Position numbers and translations under genes: made by a program
Part shown: piece by piece, positions 10,115 through 22,884 of the stretch
Layout: each line of letters begins with the position of its first letter
How positions within the stretch are numbered: position 1 is the stretch's first letter
Source of the DNA: Streptomyces sp. cg36
Lineage (GTDB): Bacteria; Actinomycetota; Actinomycetes; Streptomycetales; Streptomycetaceae
DNA length: 64,000 bases
Direction: 5' to 3'
Assembly: GCF_041080675.1 (NCBI RefSeq)
Contig: NZ_CP163520.1
Location: 3,534,001-3,598,000 of the forward strand
The notes under the pieces: model-generated
Told to the model about the DNA's origin: nothing
The model's input: only the letters and a program-made list of their open reading frames with translations
Database searches by the model: none

Positions 10115-10723
10115 ATGGCGCACGGCGAGGTGCTTGAGTTCGAAGAGTACGTACGCACCCGGCAGGAGGCTCTCCTGCGCAGCGCCCGGCGGCTCGTGCC
10201 GGACCCGGTCGACGCCCAGGACCTGCTCCAGACCGCGCTGGCCCGTACGTACGGCCGCTGGGACGGCATCGCCGACAAGGCGCTCGCCGACGCGTACCTG
10301 CGCCGCGTGATGATCAACACCCGGACCGAGTGGTGGCGCGCCCGCAAGCTCGAAGAGGTGCCCACCGAGCAGCTGCCCGACGCGCGCATCGAGGACGGCT
10401 CCGAGCAGCGCGCCGACCGCGCCCTGCTGATGGACGTCCTCAAGGTGCTGGCTCCCAAGCAGCGCAGCGTCGTGGTGCTGCGACACTGGGAGCAGATGAG
10501 CACGGAGGAGACCGCCGCGGCCCTCGGAATGTCGGCGGGTACGGTGAAGAGCACGCTGCACCGGGCGCTGGCCCGGCTCCGGCAGGAGTTGGAGAGCCGC
10601 GAGCTTGACTTCCACGCGCTCGGCGACGCTGATGTACGGAGCGGTCGCGTGGGCCGCCAGGCGGACCGACGCGTCGGCCGCGAGGAGCGCGACGAAAAGG
10701 GGCGGGAGCGGTGCGCGGCCTAG
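10115..10723 (+). CDS. sigE: ECF RNA polymerase sigma factor SigE (cell envelope stress)
   Basis: 202 residues. Region 2 is LRSARRLVPDPVDAQDLLQTALARTYGRW and region 4 is RSVVVLRHWEQMSTEETAAALGMS followed by GTVKSTLHRALARLRQEL. It is nearly identical to S. coelicolor SigE as I remember it, which directs genes for cell-wall and surface polymer synthesis when antibiotics damage peptidoglycan. There is no anti-sigma gene; control is transcriptional through CseBC. ATG 10115 is preferred to TTG 10109 because the ribosome binding site is about 8 nt away from it. The C-terminal tail (about residues 172-202, Arg/Glu-rich) is longer than the 176-residue protein I recall. Its 3' end overlaps cseA by 13 nt. 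Confidence 0.95.
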   Translation: MAHGEVLEFEEYVRTRQEALLRSARRLVPDPVDAQDLLQTALARTYGRWDGIADKALADAYLRRVMINTRTEWWRARKLEEVPTEQLPDARIEDGSEQRADRALLMDVLKVLAPKQRSVVVLRHWEQMSTEETAAALGMSAGTVKSTLHRALARLRQELESRELDFHALGDADVRSGRVGRQADRRVGREERDEKGRERCAA

Positions 10724-11364
10724 GCAGGGGCAGAGGGGGCGTACTGGCGGCGAGTACCACGGCGATGGCCGGACTCGCCGCCTTCGGGCTGCTCACCGCG
10801 GGATGCTCGACCGGCGGTACGGGCACGCGCGACGAGGGCGAGGCCCACACCGACAAGGTCAGCCACGCCACGCCGACCCCGGTCGCGACGACCGAGGCGC
10901 CCTTCAAGAAGATCAACCCCGTCCGGCTGCTCAAGGCCGACCCCAAGGTCAGCGAGCGCGTCAAGGCGGATCTGAAGCCCTGCGTGAAGGACGAGTACCC
11001 GATCGACGTCAGCTACGGGCACATCACCGGCGCCACCGGCCAGGACGTCGTGGTGAACGTGATGACGTGCGGCGACGCCGTGGGACTCGGCGCCTATGTG
11101 TACCGCGAGGACGGCACGTCGTACGACAATGTCTTCACCTCCGAGGAAGCGCCGGTCTACGCGGAGATCGACCGGGGCGACCTGGTGGTGACCAAGCAGA
11201 TGTACGCGAAGGGCGACAAGCCGGCGTTCGCCTCCAGTGAGATCGTCACCACGTACCGCTGGACCGGCGGGAAGTTCACCAAGCACGACCAGGTGGAGAA
11301 CGATTTCAGCAAGGCGGTCGGCAACGACGAGGGCAGCGAGCCACCGGTGCCGCCCTCGCCCTGA
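10711..11364 (+). CDS. cseA: Lipoprotein CseA, negative modulator of the SigE system
   Basis: 217 residues with a lipoprotein signal: hydrophobic GVLAASTTAMAGLAAFGLL then lipobox LTAGC, so the mature protein starts at that Cys and is tethered to the outer membrane face. The mature part (IDVSYGHITGATGQDVVVNVM, then VYREDGTSYDNVF) has no catalytic motif that I see. In S. coelicolor loss of CseA raises sigE expression, so it is thought to damp the CseC sensor. The GTG at 10711 lies inside the end of sigE, so translation is probably coupled. Confidence 0.9.
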   Translation: MRGLGRGRGGVLAASTTAMAGLAAFGLLTAGCSTGGTGTRDEGEAHTDKVSHATPTPVATTEAPFKKINPVRLLKADPKVSERVKADLKPCVKDEYPIDVSYGHITGATGQDVVVNVMTCGDAVGLGAYVYREDGTSYDNVFTSEEAPVYAEIDRGDLVVTKQMYAKGDKPAFASSEIVTTYRWTGGKFTKHDQVENDFSKAVGNDEGSEPPVPPSP

Positions 11365-11457
11365 CCCCGCCTCCGCCGGGGCGGTACGTCGCACGCCGAA
11401 GCCGCCGGCCGAAGCCCGCAAGCCGCAAGCGCCCGCCAAGGAACTGAGAGCAGCACG

Positions 11458-12162
11458 ATGGCCGAGACCCATGTCCTGTTCGTCGAGGACGACGACGTCA
11501 TCCGTGAAGCCACCCAGCTCGCGCTGGAGCGCGACGGCTTCACCGTGACCGCGATGCCCGACGGGCTCTCCGGTCTGGAGGCGTTCCGCGCCGACCAGCC
11601 CGACATCGCGCTCCTCGACGTGATGCTGCCCGGCCTCGACGGGGTGAGCCTGTGCCGCCGCATCCGTGACGAGTCCACCGTTCCCGTGATCATGCTGTCC
11701 GCGCGCGCCGACTCCATCGACGTGGTGCTCGGCCTGGAGGCGGGCGCCGACGACTACGTGACCAAGCCGTTCGACGGGGCCGTCCTCGTCGCCCGGATCC
11801 GCGCCGTGCTGCGCCGCTTCGGGCACGCGGGCGGGCCGGGCGCGGGCGGCGCCGAGCCCGCCGAGGACACCGAGCGCGGGGTCCTCGCCTTCGGCGACCT
11901 GGAGGTCGACACCGAGGGCATGGAGGTCCGCAAGGGCGGCGCGCCCGTCGCCCTCACCCCGACCGAGATGCGGCTGCTCCTGGAGTTCTCCTCGGCGCCC
12001 GGTACCGTGCTCTCCCGTGACAAGCTCCTGGAGCGGGTCTGGGACTACGGGTGGGGCGGTGACACGCGCGTGGTGGACGTCCACGTACAGCGGCTGCGGA
12101 CGAAGATCGGGCAGGACCGGATCGAGACCGTGCGTGGCTTCGGCTACAAACTGAAGGCGTGA
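11458..12162 (+). CDS. cseB: OmpR/PhoB-type response regulator CseB
   Basis: 234 residues. The receiver domain begins HVLFVEDDDVIREAT with the acidic pocket D11-D13 and the phospho-acceptor D54 (IALLDVMLPGLDG); K in YVTKPFDG closes the site. A winged-helix DNA-binding domain occupies about 135-232 (LTPTEMRLLLEFSS, RVVDVHVQRLRTKIG, GFGYKLKA). CseB activates the sigE promoter when phosphorylated by CseC. ATG 11458 follows a 93-bp gap after cseA. cseC begins 10 nt after its stop. Confidence 0.95.
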   Translation: MAETHVLFVEDDDVIREATQLALERDGFTVTAMPDGLSGLEAFRADQPDIALLDVMLPGLDGVSLCRRIRDESTVPVIMLSARADSIDVVLGLEAGADDYVTKPFDGAVLVARIRAVLRRFGHAGGPGAGGAEPAEDTERGVLAFGDLEVDTEGMEVRKGGAPVALTPTEMRLLLEFSSAPGTVLSRDKLLERVWDYGWGGDTRVVDVHVQRLRTKIGQDRIETVRGFGYKLKA

Positions 12163-12172
12163 GGGTCGGCTA

Positions 12173-13483
12173 GTGAGACGTCCCTCCCTGCGGACGGGCG
12201 TCCGCTGGAAGATCAGCATCGCCATCACGGCCGTCGGCGCGCTGACCGTGATGGCCCTCAGCCTCGTGGTCCACAACGCGGCCCGCGTCTCGATGCTCGA
12301 CAACGCGCGCGACCTCCAGCTCGACCGCGTGCTCTTCGCACAGCGCATCTACGAGACCAGCAAGCAGACCCGGTTCGGCGCCAAGCTCAACGACCCGGCG
12401 CTGCCCGCCGACCTCAAGGCCAAGACGGACCGGGGCCGCAAGGCCACGTCCGTGGCGGAGGGCAAGAACGGCGTGCCCGACATCTGGGCGGCCGTACCGG
12501 TCGGCAACGGCGACGTCCTGTCGCTGCACAGCACGTTCACCGACCGCAGCTCCAACGTCATCTCCGACCTCGACCGGGCGCTCGTCATCGGGTCCGTCGC
12601 CGTCGTCTTCGGCGGCTGCGCGCTCGGCATCCTCATCGGCGGGCAGATCTCGCGACGGCTGCGCAAGGCCGCGGCGGCGGCGACGAAGGTCGCCGAGGGG
12701 CACACGGACGTACGCGTACGGGACGCCATCGGCGGTGTCGTGCGCGACGAGACGGACGAGCTGGCCCGGGCCGTCGACGCGCTCACCGACGCCCTCCAGG
12801 AGCGCCTGGAGGCCGAGCGACGGGTCACCGCCGACATCGCGCACGAGCTGCGCACGCCCGTCACGGGGCTGCTCACCGCCGCCGAACTGCTGCCGCCCGG
12901 CCGCCCCACCGAGCTGGTACGGAACCGGGCCCAGGCGATGCGGACGCTGGTGGAGGACGTCCTGGAGGTCGCGCGGCTCGACAGCGCGTCCGAGCGGGCG
13001 GAGCTCCAGGAGATCGCCCTCGGGGAGTTCGTGAGCCGGCGGGTGTCCGTGCTCGACCCGGAGGCGGTGGTGCGGGTCGTCCACGAGTCGTGGGTGAACA
13101 CCGACCCGCGGCGCCTGGAGCGGATCCTGGGCAACCTGCTGGGGAACGCGGCGAAGCACGGCAAGGGGCCGGGTTCGGGGCCGGTGGAGGTCACGGTCGA
13201 GGGCCGCGTGGTGCGGGTCCGCGACCACGGGCCCGGCTTCCCGGAGGCGCTGCTGCGCGAGGGGCCGAGCCGCTTCCGCACCGGCAGCAGCGACCGCTCC
13301 GGCCACGGCCACGGCCTGGGCCTGACGATCGCGGCGGGCCAGGCCCGGGTGCTGGGCGCCCGCCTGACGTTCCGCAACGCGGCGGGCTCCTCGGCGGAGT
13401 CGGGCGGCGCGATCGCAGTACTCTGGCTCCCGGAACACGCCCCCACGGCAACGGGCAGCTTCCCGGTACTCCCCCCCAAGTAA
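12173..13483 (+). CDS. cseC: Sensor histidine kinase CseC
   Basis: 436 residues. TM1 is about 13-33 ([20 protein letters not shown]), an outside sensor loop runs to about 140, and TM2 is about 142-162 ([22 protein letters not shown]). A HAMP linker leads to the H-box [12 protein letters not shown] with phospho-acceptor H224. The ATPase domain has the N-box [10 protein letters not shown], the G1 box VRDHGPGFP and the G2 box [11 protein letters not shown]. In S. coelicolor CseC responds to cell-wall damage and phosphorylates CseB. GTG at 12173 lies just after cseB, so the four genes behave as one operon. The gene converges on the MFS exporter across repeat array B. Confidence 0.95.
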
Positions 13484-15431: not shown

Positions 15432-15989
15432 ATGGCCAGAGGCAACACCCGCCAGCGGATCCAGGATGTCGCCCTGGAGCTCTTCGGCGAGCAGGGGTAC
15501 GAGAAGACCTCGCTGCGCGAGATCGCCGAGCGGCTCGACGTCACCAAGGCCGCGCTCTACTACCACTTCAAAACCAAGGAAGACATCCTGGTGAGCCTGT
15601 TTCAGGACCTCACCAGGCCGATGGACGAGCTTCTCGAATGGGGCAAGACCCAGCCCCAGACCTTGGATTCCAAGATCGAGATTCTGCGACGTTACAGCGA
15701 GGCCCTGACCGGCGCCGCCCCGCTCTTCCGCTTCATGCAGGAGAACCAGGCGACCGTCCGGGAGCTGTCCATCGGGGAGAACTTCAAGGACCGCGTCATC
15801 GCGATGGTCGGGCTGCTGAAGGCCCCCGGCGCGCCGCTGGCGGACCAGGTCCGCTGCTTCACCGCGCTCTTCTCCATGCACGTGGGCATGCACGCCCTGA
15901 AGGACCTGGAGGGCGAGCCCGAGGAGAAGCGCAAGGCCGTCCTCGAAGTCGCCATCGACCTGGTCACCCAGGCCCACGGCGGGCAGTAG
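15432..15989 (+). CDS. TetR-family repressor of the adjacent exporter
   Basis: 185 residues. The N-terminal helix-turn-helix is canonical: [21 protein letters not shown], then [20 protein letters not shown] with KTKEDIL after it. The C-terminal part is a helical ligand and dimer domain with no motif that reveals the ligand. ATG 15432 follows GGGAGAG closely. Divergent from the DHA2 exporter at 15323, with a shared 22-bp inverted repeat, it very likely represses both genes. The 3' neighbour is the M23 peptidase on the other strand. Confidence 0.93.
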
Positions 15990-16114
15990 CGCCCGCGACG
16001 GACGGGGGTCCGCCGGACAGGCGGCCCGTCAGGCGGCGGGGCCAGCCGGTCCGCCGGACAGCGGCCCGTCCGTCAAGTGATCCCCCGAGCAGCGGTCCGC
16101 CGGGCCGCGGTCCG

Positions 16115-16765
16115 TCAGACCTTGACGCCCTCGGCGCGCAGGAAGACGACCGGGTTCACGGCCGAGCCGTAGTTCGCGGTGGTGCGGATCTCGAAGTGGA
16201 GGTGCGGGCCGCTGGAGTTGCCGGTGTTGCCGGAGAGGGCGATCCGCTGGTCGGTGGAGACCGACTGCCCGATGCGGACGTCGATCCGCGACAGGTGCGC
16301 GTACTGCGAGTACGTGTTGTCGGCGTGGCGGATCACGACGGCGTTGCCGTACGCCGGCCCGTCGCCGCCGCCGACCGGGCCCGCCTTGACGACGGTGCCC
16401 GCGTGCACGGCCTTGACCGGGGTGCCGACCGGCACCGCGAAGTCCTGGCCGGAGTGCTTGTGGGCCCACATCGAGCCGCCGGTGCCGAAGGTGGCGCTGA
16501 GCTGGTACACGTCCACCGGGTCCACCCAGCTCGCGGCCTTCGCCGCCGCCGCCCGCTCGGCCTTCACGGCCGCCTTGGCCTGCGCGTCGGCCTGCGCGGC
16601 GACGGCGGTGGCCGCGCCGGTCAGCGCCGGGGCGCCCGCCTTGTCGGCCGCCGCGGCCGTTCCCGTACCCAGCAGGGCCGCCGCTCCGAGGCCCGCGCCC
16701 ACGAGGGCGGCGCAGAGACGGCGGGCGGACGGACGGGAGCCGGGGAGAGCGGAACGCGGGGACAT
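16115..16765 (-). CDS. Secreted M23-family peptidase (LytM-type cell wall hydrolase)
   Basis: 216 residues. An N-terminal signal peptide (RRLCAALVGAGLGAAALLG, cleavage near GTAAAA) is followed by an Ala/Lys-rich helical linker (about 45-80). The LytM domain carries the zinc ligands in HKHSGQDFAVPVGTPV (H and D) and HLHFE, with the second-shell histidine in SQYAHLSRI. Such enzymes cut peptide bridges of peptidoglycan. ATG 16765 has GGAGG about 10 nt before it. The 5' leader contains a 9-bp-arm hairpin at 16811-16840. It is divergent from the NACHT gene; a functional link is not evident. Confidence 0.93.
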   Translation of the reverse strand: MSPRSALPGSRPSARRLCAALVGAGLGAAALLGTGTAAAADKAGAPALTGAATAVAAQADAQAKAAVKAERAAAAKAASWVDPVDVYQLSATFGTGGSMWAHKHSGQDFAVPVGTPVKAVHAGTVVKAGPVGGGDGPAYGNAVVIRHADNTYSQYAHLSRIDVRIGQSVSTDQRIALSGNTGNSSGPHLHFEIRTTANYGSAVNPVVFLRAEGVKV

Positions 16766-16810
16766 ACGGGACGGACCTCCGGGTCGGGGACAGGAGCGGT
16801 GGGGCAGGAA

Positions 16811-16840
16811 GCCGCCCGGCACGAGAGCGCACCGGGCGGC
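16811..16840 (-). promoter_or_regulatory. Hairpin in the 5' leader of the M23 peptidase gene
   Basis: GCCGCCCGG and CCGGGCGGC form perfect 9-bp arms around a 12-nt loop, 46-75 nt before the ATG at 16765. It may be an attenuator or a 5' stabilising structure. Confidence 0.5.
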
Positions 16841-17007
16841 ATCCCTTGGTACCCCGCACCCCCATCCCGCCCCAAAACGCCCATCTACTAACGAAAGCCG
16901 TAACGATCAGACGGGGAATCCGGCCCCGCCACCGGTCCGGGCCCGCTATCCCCGGTAGTAGGCCCCCGCCGGCCTGTGCGCCTTGTCACCGCGCACCGCC
17001 GGGCCAT

Positions 17008-17060
17008 GGGCCTTTGGTCCTTCCGATTCGGGACCAAGGTCCCGTGTGCGCGACTACGCT
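17008..17060 (+). promoter_or_regulatory. Two DevR/DosR-like boxes and -10 of the NACHT gene
   Basis: GGGCCTTTGGTCCT (17008-17021) and GGGACCAAGGTCCC (17030-17043) both resemble the core GGGACTWWAGTCCC of the DevR/DosR box; the second is a perfect inverted repeat and has TTC before it as in the full consensus. Centres are 22 bp apart. A TACGCT at 17055-17060 is a good -10, placing the second box over the -35. Confidence 0.65.
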
Positions 17061-17106
17061 GACGGGTCCTGGAACCGGGTCCGCGTCGCGTCGCAAGGAG
17101 AACCGG

Positions 17107-20100
17107 ATGCCGCACCACGCCCCCGCCGTACCCGCCGCGACCGGCACGGGCCGGGGCGCCCGCGTGGTCGCCGTCCTCGGGCCCCGGCAGGGCACCGGCG
17201 TACTGATCGGGCCCGGCCTGGTGCTGACCTGCGCCCATCTACTGGATCTGGACGCCTTGCCCATCGTCCTCACCGAACCGACCCGGACGGTCACCGCGCA
17301 GGTGGCGTGGTGCGACCGGGAGCTCGATGTCGCGCTCCTCGCCTGCGTGGACGAGGCGGCGCAGTGGCCGGGCGGGGTGCTCCGGCTCGGCAGGCTCGGC
17401 ACCGAACAGCCGCTGCCGGGGTGTGAGGTGACCGGGTTCCCCGACGTGCAGCGGCTGCGGGGGCGGGAGCTGGACCGGGACCACTTCACCGGGACCGTAC
17501 TGCCGCTGGCCGGGCTGCGGAGCGAGGAGATGACCTTCGAGTTCGACCGCCCGCCCGCGGCCGAGCGCGCCGACGGCACCTCGCCCCTGGCGGGCCTCTC
17601 CGGCGCTCCGGTCTTCGCGGGCGAGACGCTGATCGGCATCGCCCGCGAGGTGCAGGGGGGACGGGCGCACTACCGGGTGCGCTGCGTCCCCGTGTCGGTG
17701 ATCGTCGACCGCCCGGACTTCGCCTCCCACGCACGGTGGAACGGGGTGTGGCCGCGAGTGACCCTGGAGGCCGTCACCGGCGCCCACTCCGAGGACGCGC
17801 GCTACGAAGGGGAGTACGCCGGGGCCCTGCGCGCCGAGTACCGCCGCACCCGCATCTTCGGCCTCGACGAACTGGGCCGGAACGACTCCGAGTGGGACCT
17901 GGACACCGCCTACCTCAGCCTGGAGGCCGAGGCGAAGGGCCCCGGCGGACCCGGCCTGCCGTACGGCGGCGGGACGCCCCAGCGCATCGACGCCCTGCTG
18001 GCGTCCCGGCCGTGCGTGCTGCTGCGCGGCGACGCGGGCGCGGGCAAGACGACCCTGGTGTGGTGGCTGGCCGCGCACGCGGCGGCGGGCACCCTGGGGC
18101 CCGGCCTGGCCGAGCTGAACGGGCTGGTGCCGTTCGTCGTCCCGCTGCGCACCCTGCGCGCCACGGCCACCCGCTACCCCGTGCCGGGCGAACTCCCTCA
18201 CTCCGCCCGCCTGATGATCGACGGCCCACCGGAGGGCTGGGCGGTCCGGGTCCTGGCCGCCGGGCGGGCGCTGCTGCTCGTGGACGGCCTGGACGAAGTG
18301 CCGCCGGACGACCGCGAGGAGGCCCACCGCTGGCTCTCCCACCTGCTGGAGCGCTACCCCGGGAACCGCTGCGTCGCGACCGTACGCCCGCTCGCCGTCG
18401 AGCCGGACTGGCTGAAGCGGTCCGGCTTCGCGGAGCTGCGGCTGCTGCCGATGCGGGACGACGACATCCAGGCGTTCGTCACCGCCTGGCACGCGGCGGC
18501 CCGGCTGGACAGCGACCCGCGCGAACCGCTGGACGACCTGGAGCGCGACCTCGCCCACCAGTTCCGCACCAACCCCACCCTGGCCGACCTCGCCCGTACG
18601 CCCCTGCTCTGCGCGGTCATCTGCGCCCTGCACCGGCTGCGCCAGGGCTTCCTGCCCAAGACCCGCTGGGACCTGTACCAGTCGGCGCTGAGGATGCTGC
18701 TCGGGGAGCGCGACGAGCGCCGCAAGGTGGGCGCGCCCGAACGGATCGCCCTCACCGTCGAGGAGTCCACCCAGCTCCTCCAGCGCATCGCGGTGTGGCT
18801 GGTGCGGGAGGGCCAGTCCTTGTTCACGGACCTGGAGGCGGCGCAGCGGATCGAACGGGCGCTGCCGGGCATGGCGGGCGCGCGGGACCGGGGCACCCCG
18901 GCCGATGTGCTGCGGTACCTGCTCAACCGCAGCGGGCTGCTCCAGGAACGCGACGAAGGGGTCTACCAGTTCGCCCACCGCACCTTCCAGGACTTCCTGG
19001 CCGCGAAGGAGCTGGTCGAGGACGACCACCTCAAGGAACTGGTGCGGCACGCCACGGAGGACACCTGGCAGGACGTGATCCTGCTGGCCGCGGGCCACTG
19101 CGGACGCCAGCAACTGGCCGGGCTGGTCAACGGGCTGCTGAAGTTGCGCGGCCGGGGGCGCGGGGACACCCCGGTGCTCGCGGCGCTGTGCGCGCAGCAC
19201 GCGGCCTGGCTCGACGAGCGGACGCTGGAGCGGGTCCGGGAGGGCGTCGTGCGGCTGCTGCCGCCCGTCAGTGGGGATGGCCTGCGGACCCTGGCCCGCC
19301 TGGGCCCTTCGCTTCTCCCACTGCTGCCCGACCCCGCGACCGTCACCTCCGCAGACCGCGGCATCGCGCGCTACGCCGAGTTGATCAGCGCGATCGGCGG
19401 CGCGGAAGCCGTCCCCCACGCGTACGCCTGGGGTTCCCGCCACCCTGCCGCCGCGCAGGTGCTCGCCCAGAGCTGGTCGCAGTATCCCGCCGCGGCCTAC
19501 GCGCGGGAGGTGCTCGCCCGGATTCCGTTGGCGCACTTCACCTTGCAGGTGCGGTCGAAGGAGCAGTTGGACGAAGTACGCGGCCTGCCCGGCCTGGACC
19601 GGCTGATGATCTGGGGCGACTTCACCACCGGCGAGCTGGCCGGAGCACTGGACGGCTCGGCCCCGCGCTCTCTTCTTCTGCGCTCCAACACCGCCGTCTC
19701 GGACCTCTCGTTCCTGCGCGGCGCGACGAACCGGCTGGAACGCCTGGATCTGGTGATGTGCCCGCGGCTCGACGACTTCTCGGCCCTCTCCGACCTCACG
19801 GGCCTCACGGGCCTCACCGAGTTGCGTCTCCGCCGCGTGGGAGCCGACGACCTCTCCGCCGTCCCGGCACATTCAGGGGTGACCCGGCTCGCGATCGAGG
19901 CGAGTACGGGACCGGTCGGCACGGTGGGACTGGAAGCCTGGAGGAGCTTGTCCTACCTGTCTGTGAGCCGGCCCGCGAACCCCACCGCGCTGCTGCGCCA
20001 GGTCGACGAGCTGCCGAAGCTGAACCAACTGGAGCTGTGGATCGGCTCCGCCCGGGATTTCCATGGCGCGCCCGCCTGTCCAGCGGTGCGCGATCTGACC

Positions 20101-20280
20101 CTGCACCTCGCCGAAGACCGCCACGGCATCGAGCGACTGCCCGGCCTGTTCCCCTCGCTGAAGCGGCTGCACCTCCTCCTGAACGCAGACTTCAGAGTGC
20201 CCGGCCCCAGAGAGCTCAAGGATCTCAAGGCCCTCTTCCCACCCACCGTCGGCGTGATCGTCAACGGCAGCCTGCTCTGA
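17107..20280 (+). CDS. Trypsin-like protease / NACHT NTPase / LRR protein (bacterial NLR-like, candidate defence)
   Basis: 1057 residues in three parts. Residues ~15-200 form a trypsin-like protease with an apparently intact triad: H44 (LTCAHLL), D74 (ELDVALL), S165 (GLSGAPVF). Residues ~295-640 form a NACHT module: Walker A GDAGAGKTT (308-316), Walker B LLLVDGLDEV (389-398), and the hallmark FAHRTFQDFLAA (622-633) closing the winged helix. Residues ~830-1050 contain leucine-rich repeats (LERLDLVMCPRLDDFSALSD, LTELRLRRVGADDL). No signal peptide, so cytosolic. Bacterial proteins of this plan (bNACHT/Avs-like STAND proteins) sense phage and fire an N-terminal effector, here a protease. ATG 17107 follows AAGGAG. 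It stands alone, converging on clpC. The immune role is inferred from architecture. Confidence 0.88.
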   Translation: MPHHAPAVPAATGTGRGARVVAVLGPRQGTGVLIGPGLVLTCAHLLDLDALPIVLTEPTRTVTAQVAWCDRELDVALLACVDEAAQWPGGVLRLGRLGTEQPLPGCEVTGFPDVQRLRGRELDRDHFTGTVLPLAGLRSEEMTFEFDRPPAAERADGTSPLAGLSGAPVFAGETLIGIAREVQGGRAHYRVRCVPVSVIVDRPDFASHARWNGVWPRVTLEAVTGAHSEDARYEGEYAGALRAEYRRTRIFGLDELGRNDSEWDLDTAYLSLEAEAKGPGGPGLPYGGGTPQRIDALLASRPCVLLRGDAGAGKTTLVWWLAAHAAAGTLGPGLAELNGLVPFVVPLRTLRATATRYPVPGELPHSARLMIDGPPEGWAVRVLAAGRALLLVDGLDEVPPDDREEAHRWLSHLLERYPGNRCVATVRPLAVEPDWLKRSGFAELRLLPMRDDDIQAFVTAWHAAARLDSDPREPLDDLERDLAHQFRTNPTLADLARTPLLCAVICALHRLRQGFLPKTRWDLYQSALRMLLGERDERRKVGAPERIALTVEESTQLLQRIAVWLVREGQSLFTDLEAAQRIERALPGMAGARDRGTPADVLRYLLNRSGLLQERDEGVYQFAHRTFQDFLAAKELVEDDHLKELVRHATEDTWQDVILLAAGHCGRQQLAGLVNGLLKLRGRGRGDTPVLAALCAQHAAWLDERTLERVREGVVRLLPPVSGDGLRTLARLGPSLLPLLPDPATVTSADRGIARYAELISAIGGAEAVPHAYAWGSRHPAAAQVLAQSWSQYPAAAYAREVLARIPLAHFTLQVRSKEQLDEVRGLPGLDRLMIWGDFTTGELAGALDGSAPRSLLLRSNTAVSDLSFLRGATNRLERLDLVMCPRLDDFSALSDLTGLTGLTELRLRRVGADDLSAVPAHSGVTRLAIEASTGPVGTVGLEAWRSLSYLSVSRPANPTALLRQVDELPKLNQLELWIGSARDFHGAPACPAVRDLTLHLAEDRHGIERLPGLFPSLKRLHLLLNADFRVPGPRELKDLKALFPPTVGVIVNGSLL

Positions 20281-20287
20281 CCCGGAA

Positions 20288-20342
20288 AAGGGGCTGCCCC
20301 GGCCCCGTACGACTTCTCGTACGGAATCCGGGGCAGCCCCTT
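20288..20342. terminator. Strong bidirectional terminator
   Basis: AAGGGGCTGCCCCGG (20288-20302) is repeated as its perfect reverse complement at 20328-20342, with a second small stem GTACG/CGTAC inside the loop. It lies between the converging NACHT and clpC genes. Confidence 0.85.
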
Positions 20343-20358
20343 GCGAGCCCTGCGGAGG

Positions 20359-22884
<2,526 letters not shown>

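Follow-up and report, generated by a model that had tools for sequence, protein, structure and literature searches.

Receptor gene and domain architecture

The stretch analysed here, referred to below as the window, comprises 64,000 nucleotides of the Streptomyces sp. cg36 chromosome contig NZ_CP163520.1 (positions 3,534,001 to 3,598,000 of the forward strand). Between the gene for an M23 peptidase and clpC it contains a gene whose product combines a trypsin-like protease, a NACHT module and C-terminal leucine-rich repeats (LRRs), and is a candidate bacterial NLR (nucleotide-binding, LRR-containing receptor). An earlier note, made from the window sequence, had described this protein as having an active-looking protease, a complete NACHT switch and an LRR sensor. 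The gene is a single open reading frame (ORF) of 1057 amino acids, located at the coordinates given there, with an ATG at 17107 and a stop codon ending at 20280 (plus strand). The quoted residues and motifs are all present, and the NLR-like architecture is supported by Pfam, by the structure model and by the alignment of relatives.

Pfam identifies Trypsin_2 at residues 29–175 (34.4 bits, cut-off 27.6) and NACHT at residues 304–464 (82.8 bits, cut-off 26.7). The protease part contains a His-Asp-Ser triad and a GxSG motif within an HtrA/trypsin fold and thus looks active by its sequence; the NACHT domain has intact Walker motifs. Conservation was assessed over 163 aligned rows (120 database proteins, 23 genes from the slot described below and 20 from other loci), among which are some near-duplicates and two entries for the window protein. 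H44 and D74 are unchanged in all 162 rows that reach this far (P0015 begins after it), and S165, G163, K314, D393, D396, E397 and H624 in 163 of 163. As judged from this alignment, the invariance of the triad and switch residues exceeds chance.

The AlphaFold model of the receptor has a mean predicted local distance difference test score (pLDDT) of 82.3 and a predicted template modelling score (pTM) of 0.54. Residues 812–1052 are modelled as 11 short strands with LRR-like spacing (pLDDT 76–97 by 10-residue blocks), and the conserved hydrophobic positions of this part alternate when the alignment is mapped on the model strands. According to Foldseek, the closest solved folds are NOD2, NLRC4 and NLRP3 over the NACHT-LRR part and DegP/HtrA over the protease part. 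No CARD was found by Pfam in the ORF, which holds both the peptidase and the NLR-like part, and no structure-based search for CARD was made. The features of the locus are listed in Table 1.

Table 1. Features of the M23–clpC interval in the window
Feature	Position	Strand	Evidence
M23 peptidase gene, left slot border, divergent from receptor	16115..16822	-	
Intergenic region, usual trypco2 site in most trypsin-type relatives; no trypco2 match in this copy	16823..17106	.	
AAGGAG, likely ribosome-binding site ahead of ATG 17107	17095..17100	+	Read in sequence
Trypsin-NACHT-LRR receptor gene, 1057 amino acids	17107..20280	+	ORF, Pfam, AlphaFold model
HtrA/trypsin-like protease domain, residues 18-200	17158..17706	+	Pfam, fold match, alignment
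Codons of H44, D74 and S165 in the protease domain	17236-17238; 17326-17328; 17599-17601	+	
NACHT module, residues 230-650 (Pfam core 304-464)	17794..19056	+	Pfam, entropy, alignment
NACHT motifs: Walker A around K314; LLLVDGLDEV at residues 389-398; FAHRTFQDFLAA from residue 622			
Helical region linking NACHT to LRR, residues 651-810	19057..19536	+	Model secondary structure
Variable LRR sensor, residues 811-1057	19537..20277	+	Model, entropy
Terminator-like inverted repeat between convergent receptor and clpC, arms 20290-20302 and 20328-20340	20290..20340	.	Read in sequence
clpC, right slot border, convergent with receptor	20359..22884	-	

The M23–clpC interval as a recurrent slot

A single clpC match at E ≤ 1e-250 was found in 293 of 295 Streptomyces genomes, and clpC stands beside the receptor gene in 26 of the 29 best foreign loci (L014–L042). 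The interval was surveyed in the clpC 3' flank of 100 genomes that were chosen by hand; this sample leans to the clpC places nearest the window ClpC, and L084, L140 and L141 end early at contig ends. At least one NACHT ORF of at least 800 amino acids is present in 55 of 101 loci including the window (54 of 100 without it). Twenty-two of these loci, the window among them, hold the trypsin type alone, and 24 hold a gene with another N-terminus, NNH1, alone; two NNH1 genes were found in six loci, three in two, and an NNH1 gene together with a trypsin-type gene in one. Pfam NNH1 was detected in all 42 non-trypsin N-termini scanned, the first gene of L120 being left out as the region is missing.

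The other 46 loci include nine with short or broken NACHT pieces, which are of the trypsin type in L053, L057, L089, L091, L098 and L105 and of the other type in L046, L136 and L141. In L066 a second, broken trypsin-type copy lies next to the intact one. No receptor body was seen in the remaining 37 of 101 loci, of which L084 ends early; M23 was not found in two of these empty slots (L106, L109), and a weak match in L124 was not counted as a relic. Other weak matches in empty slots were likewise rejected as relics, being due to overlong ORF starts (for example, L080 residues 1–151). In five NACHT-free slots (L043, L055, L078, L090, L102) other long ORFs lie between M23 and clpC, and several of them start, as seen by eye, with secretion-signal-like stretches. 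Because two relatives lie near chromosome ends, it was considered whether the receptor travels with an additional clpC copy; this was rejected, given the single match in 293 of 295 genomes.

The M23–clpC interval is a recurrent NLR slot with zero to three NACHT genes, relics and turnover; the single-gene insertion that the earlier note had suggested is not supported. Universal presence with strict synteny, for which the note had proposed to look, was not observed: intact trypsin-type genes occupy 22 of the 100 sampled slots, plus that of the window. In a tree of the neighbouring major facilitator superfamily protein, a one-gene proxy that covers 69 of 101 loci and only 10 trypsin-type carriers, presence of the trypsin type requires nine changes, against a mean of 9.5 for shuffled labels (201 of 500 shuffles were as low). 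On this proxy, the idea that the trypsin type is inherited along with the backbone was rejected, since the label is no more clustered than in the shuffles. Presence of NNH1 requires 14 changes in the same tree, and the pattern fits turnover.

Two receptor classes

In the NACHT tree the slot trypsin (23 rows) and NNH1 (43 rows) receptors form two groups with 100/100 support. Because the two types are separate NACHT groups, the slot alone shows gene replacement and no domain swapping, and an effector swap within the slot was rejected. Among 20 trypsin-NACHT copies from elsewhere, 11 group with the slot trypsin class and nine with the NNH1 lineage. A single clade of all trypsin-bearing rows was rejected by the approximately unbiased (AU) test (p=3.7e-7), and the more careful tree, in a set that contains long branches, requires two module changes. 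The proposed module exchange therefore rests on the wider, off-slot set. Four genomes (L158–L161) have, away from clpC, a trypsin-NACHT gene with a NACHT of the NNH1 lineage and no Trypco2 match nearby.

Trypco2 as the neighbour of the protease class

A gene with a Trypco2 domain immediately precedes 34 of 38 slot trypsin-NACHT genes and none of the 48 slot NACHT genes without a protease match. The queries were a plasmid Trypco2 and two relatives; genes near a locus edge were dropped beforehand, and the count takes in 11 extra loci (L177–L187), most of them fetched as trypsin-type carriers. Thus, the claim of the earlier note that no partner gene is adjacent stands for the window and fails for the type. 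No Trypco2 was found at the site in the window and in its nearest sampled relative (G168, L177); the other two genes without an upstream Trypco2 are the first copies in L066 and L179. Off the slot, Trypco2 is upstream of 13 of the 20 trypsin-NACHT copies, with a downstream match at L154 and L157.

In the reverse search, 167 Trypco2 loci were confirmed among genome contigs. The best 80 of these are all labelled as Streptomyces; a protease follows next in 77 and a NACHT as well in 74, three of the six exceptions lying at contig ends, and clpC is inside the flank in 59. In 64 of the best 80 loci the stop codon of Trypco2 overlaps an ATG, GTG or TTG from which a frame of 600 codons or more starts, suggesting that the two genes are translationally coupled. 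Judged by gene order, the Trypco2 linkage is specific to the protease class.

Elsewhere in the window genome two weak Trypco2-like matches (31% identity) and a third, weaker one with an internal stop were found. The predicted fold of Trypco2 was too poor to be used (pLDDT 60.1, pTM 0.36). No tested function of the domain is given in the portions covered of the literature that names it; lineages with and without Trypco2 constitute a natural experiment on this domain.

Variability and exchange of the sensor

Mean column entropy in 71 sequences is 0.69 bit for residues 291–650, 1.30 for the protease and 2.19 for the LRR part. Within the latter, 40 non-hydrophobic strand positions average 3.21 bits, compared with 2.42 for 127 other non-hydrophobic positions (p=1.2e-12), and the value drops steadily as the strand pattern is shifted, to 2.2–2.4 at 10–12 residues. 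In 19 closer pairs, differences affect 23% of exposed strand positions, 17% of other polar and 6% of hydrophobic ones. On the predicted structure, LRR variability peaks at the exposed positions of the concave strands.

Comparison of loci at the DNA level (150-base blocks) points to exchange of the sensor. Between L095 and L096 the flank, the protease and the NACHT module are 86–99% identical; then follow one block of 76%, an LRR region of 48–66% and, at clpC, two last blocks of 93% and 97%. The LRR drop is also seen in the other three trypsin-type comparisons on a more divergent background. Sensor replacement extends beyond the trypsin type, as the first NNH1-NACHT gene of the tandem in L118 and L119 shows 57–67% identity in the LRR and mostly 81–96% in the rest. 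The pair L049/L052 showed no LRR identity drop and almost no LRR excess, and L101/L104 no LRR excess.

The ratio of nonsynonymous to synonymous substitution rates (dN/dS) in the LRR is below 1 in all ten pairs (0.19–0.88), and simple positive selection over the whole LRR was rejected. In trypsin-type pairs the LRR exceeds the NACHT module in synonymous divergence as well, and this points to replacement rather than selection alone.

Among the 163 sequences, LRR identity is below 0.5 in 14 of 111 pairs with NACHT identity of at least 0.95, and 10 of the 12 pairs displayed involve one protein, P0049. Tree conflict was evaluated by AU tests on groups chosen after the identities had been seen. Placing P0049 with its NACHT relatives is rejected by the LRR data (p=2.7e-4) and not by the protease data (p=0.096); placing it with its LRR relative P0104 is rejected by both the NACHT (p=8.7e-4) and the protease data (p=0.008). 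P0060, P0087 and P0093 form one group by NACHT and by LRR, which the protease rejects (p=1.2e-6). P0114, P0116 and P0065 form one group by LRR, rejected by the protease (p=0.007) and weakly by NACHT (p=0.04). As these alignments indicate, the LRRs can be replaced in receptors that are otherwise near-identical, and the trees conflict in both directions.

Distribution of relatives

A protein search with 7987 scored candidates yielded 968 relatives at E ≤ 1e-3; in the best 120 of them, every protein that bears an organism name is from Streptomyces. Matches at E ≤ 1e-20 were found in 207 of 295 Streptomyces genomes, many of them NACHT-only. In a class-wide survey 14 of 246 genomes match at E ≤ 1e-60, and the two matches outside Streptomyces begin at residue 228 or 291 and lack the protease. 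Matches occur in 14 plasmid records, and in one of these the match spans at least 80% of the length. A full-length relative with 43% identity is encoded on the 67.7-kb Streptomyces jietaisiensis plasmid NZ_CP108340.1 (L173, 7630–11288), directly after a gene annotated as a trypco2 family protein, in which Pfam confirmed Trypco2; a mobile replicon can therefore carry the pair.

These proteins are already annotated, under names such as "NACHT domain-containing protein" and "serine protease" in the databases; the present analysis adds the slot, the partner rule and the sensor behaviour. The literature search, to which subscription papers were external, found no description of the clpC slot or of the receptor class in Streptomyces.

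The window genome has 12 NACHT matches at E ≤ 0.001, nine of them over the cut-off, including a helix-turn-helix (HTH)-NACHT protein (L001) and an NNH1-NACHT protein (L002). At about 337 kb (G000:C1; L012, 427–3390) it encodes a second trypsin-like protein of the STAND (signal transduction ATPases with numerous domains) kind, with Trypsin_2 over the cut-off (50.5 bits), NACHT below it (21.5 bits) and HEAT repeats.

Proposed function and alternatives

The sequence variability of the sensor and the turnover of the slot suggest recognition of invaders such as phages. With a probability of about two in three, we consider the protein to be a bacterial NLR that stops infection by proteolysis. For this scheme we infer the ligand, the oligomerisation, the activation and the target of the protease, phage as the trigger and the role in defence. 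The LRR part would bind a protein of an intruder, most probably a phage. Following the model of STAND receptors, binding would free the NACHT module for nucleotide exchange and oligomerisation, and the proximity of the clustered N-terminal HtrA-like domains would switch on the protease. The active protease would cut a host or invader protein, and infection would be stopped. Most relatives would co-produce the receptor and Trypco2, which probably serves the protease as partner, brake or substrate; the window lineage would operate without it.

Several observations weigh against this interpretation. No copy matched in 50,697 phage records, and 77 pattern matches in viral contigs gave no confirmed case. 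The neighbourhood is core, with no defence island. In the defence-model scans no family fits the receptor, and PADLOC gave weak matches only (RT-Protease_XI, 21.5 bits, on the protease part). Pfam LRR_4 reaches 17.6 bits, under its cut-off of 27, although C-terminal leucine-rich repeats are present by the predicted structure. TM-scores to NLR structures are low (0.17–0.29 over the query among the matches listed), and together with the pTM this makes the arrangement of the modules uncertain. The LRR dN/dS below 1 and the missing Trypco2 of the window copy belong to the same side.

In plant NLRs the LRR sensors diversify on their concave face, and alleles exchange them. We tentatively propose, at slightly less than even odds, that the M23–clpC interval is a bacterial counterpart of a plant resistance-gene locus: a fixed slot in which two NLR effector classes (an HtrA-like protease with Trypco2, or NNH1) would be gained, lost, duplicated and recombined. 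The LRR, and sometimes the protease, would be exchanged around a conserved NACHT core, with diversification on the concave LRR face, and the window lineage would be derived and partner-free. A plant-like LRR pattern is seen here in bacteria, at one fixed locus and in Streptomyces that can be cultured; among them is S. griseus, which has the trypco2-receptor pair next to clpC (L229). With a single gene it becomes possible to test ligand specificity, the exchange of sensors and the direct switching-on of a protease by an NLR.

Fungal NLRs act in heterokaryon incompatibility, arresting or killing the contacted compartment. In a similar way, the LRR could recognise polymorphic proteins from other Streptomyces strains or from conjugative elements, and the protease would arrest or kill the contacted compartment. 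The polymorphic sensor, the allele-like exchange at one fixed locus and the near confinement to a filamentous genus among the sampled genomes agree with such a receptor for allorecognition or plasmid entry, as does the receptor copy on a plasmid. Nothing separates such a trigger from phage, however, and the bacterial NACHT proteins that have been tested are directed against phages (PMC12169576). We regard this explanation as unlikely. The fungal receptors are mentioned as a comparison in PMC7159879.

The place beside clpC, with convergent genes in 26 of the 29 best foreign loci, and the HtrA type of the protease fold could instead indicate a protein-quality or stress sensor tied to clpC, a NACHT-gated protease sensing misfolded proteins. 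Yet the receptor type is patchy, decayed or replaced while clpC occurs in 293 of 295 genomes; the slot also holds protease-free NNH1 receptors or unrelated ORFs, such receptors are located elsewhere too, and LRR replacement is unexpected for a housekeeping sensor, so that this possibility appears quite improbable. Least probable of all is a protease domain that acts mainly in peptide binding or as a scaffold, or a STAND-type regulator whose output is not proteolysis: another NACHT protein of the window genome bears an HTH domain, but Pfam found no DNA-binding domain in the window receptor, and the triad and GxSG motif are invariant across its family.

Relation to known systems

Bacterial NACHT proteins are established phage defences, and a protein with NACHT and LRR in one ORF is termed a "bona fide bacterial NLR" (PMC12169576). 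Like the bNACHT proteins described there, the window receptor is tripartite, with an N-terminal effector, NACHT and a C-terminal sensor; its family differs in the protease effector, the clpC slot and the Trypco2 of relatives. Kinship with Avs, which the earlier note had named among the anti-phage sensors, found no support: among the curated Avs models Avs2 alone appeared, with 8.5 bits against a cut-off of 1000. The curated EruA model reached 26.1 bits (cut-off 1000), on the NACHT region alone. Bacterial NLRs, or bNACHT proteins, are reportedly the subject of Kibby et al. 2023.

In the CARD-NLR systems of Lysobacter and LypABC of Caulobacter a trypsin-like serine peptidase also works with an NLR-like ATPase (PMC13236601). 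There, peptidase and NLR-like protein are encoded by separate genes with a CARD-like link, tetratricopeptide repeats and an ATPase of another family, whereas the window receptor is one polypeptide with NACHT and LRR. STAND proteins with peptidase effectors are listed in PMC8195603 and PMC10907252.

Trypco domains were defined beside trypsin domains in ternary conflict systems (PMC7159879). As in these, most receptor relatives combine a trypsin-like domain with a neighbouring Trypco2 gene. In the conflict systems the trypsin domain is part of VMAP proteins, whose partners are MoxR and vWA (PMC7159879); that of the receptor is fused to NACHT-LRR, and the window copy lacks the adjacent Trypco2 of a Trypsin-Trypco2 module. 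NNH1-NACHT proteins share the M23–clpC slot, sometimes in tandem with the trypsin type, but have a helical N-terminus instead of the protease, a separate NACHT group and no Trypco2 beside them; no paper treating NNH1 together with NACHT was found in the literature search.

Metazoan NLRs have a CARD or PYD adaptor as effector, whereas in the window receptor, which resembles NOD2, NLRC4 and NLRP3 over the NACHT-LRR part with low TM-scores, a protease is fused directly.

Other features of the window

Rfam gave no match within 15900–20500. At 10115–13483 ORFs for a sigma factor, a lipoprotein-like protein, a response regulator and a sensor kinase follow one another, a row that we take to resemble the sigE-cse operon.

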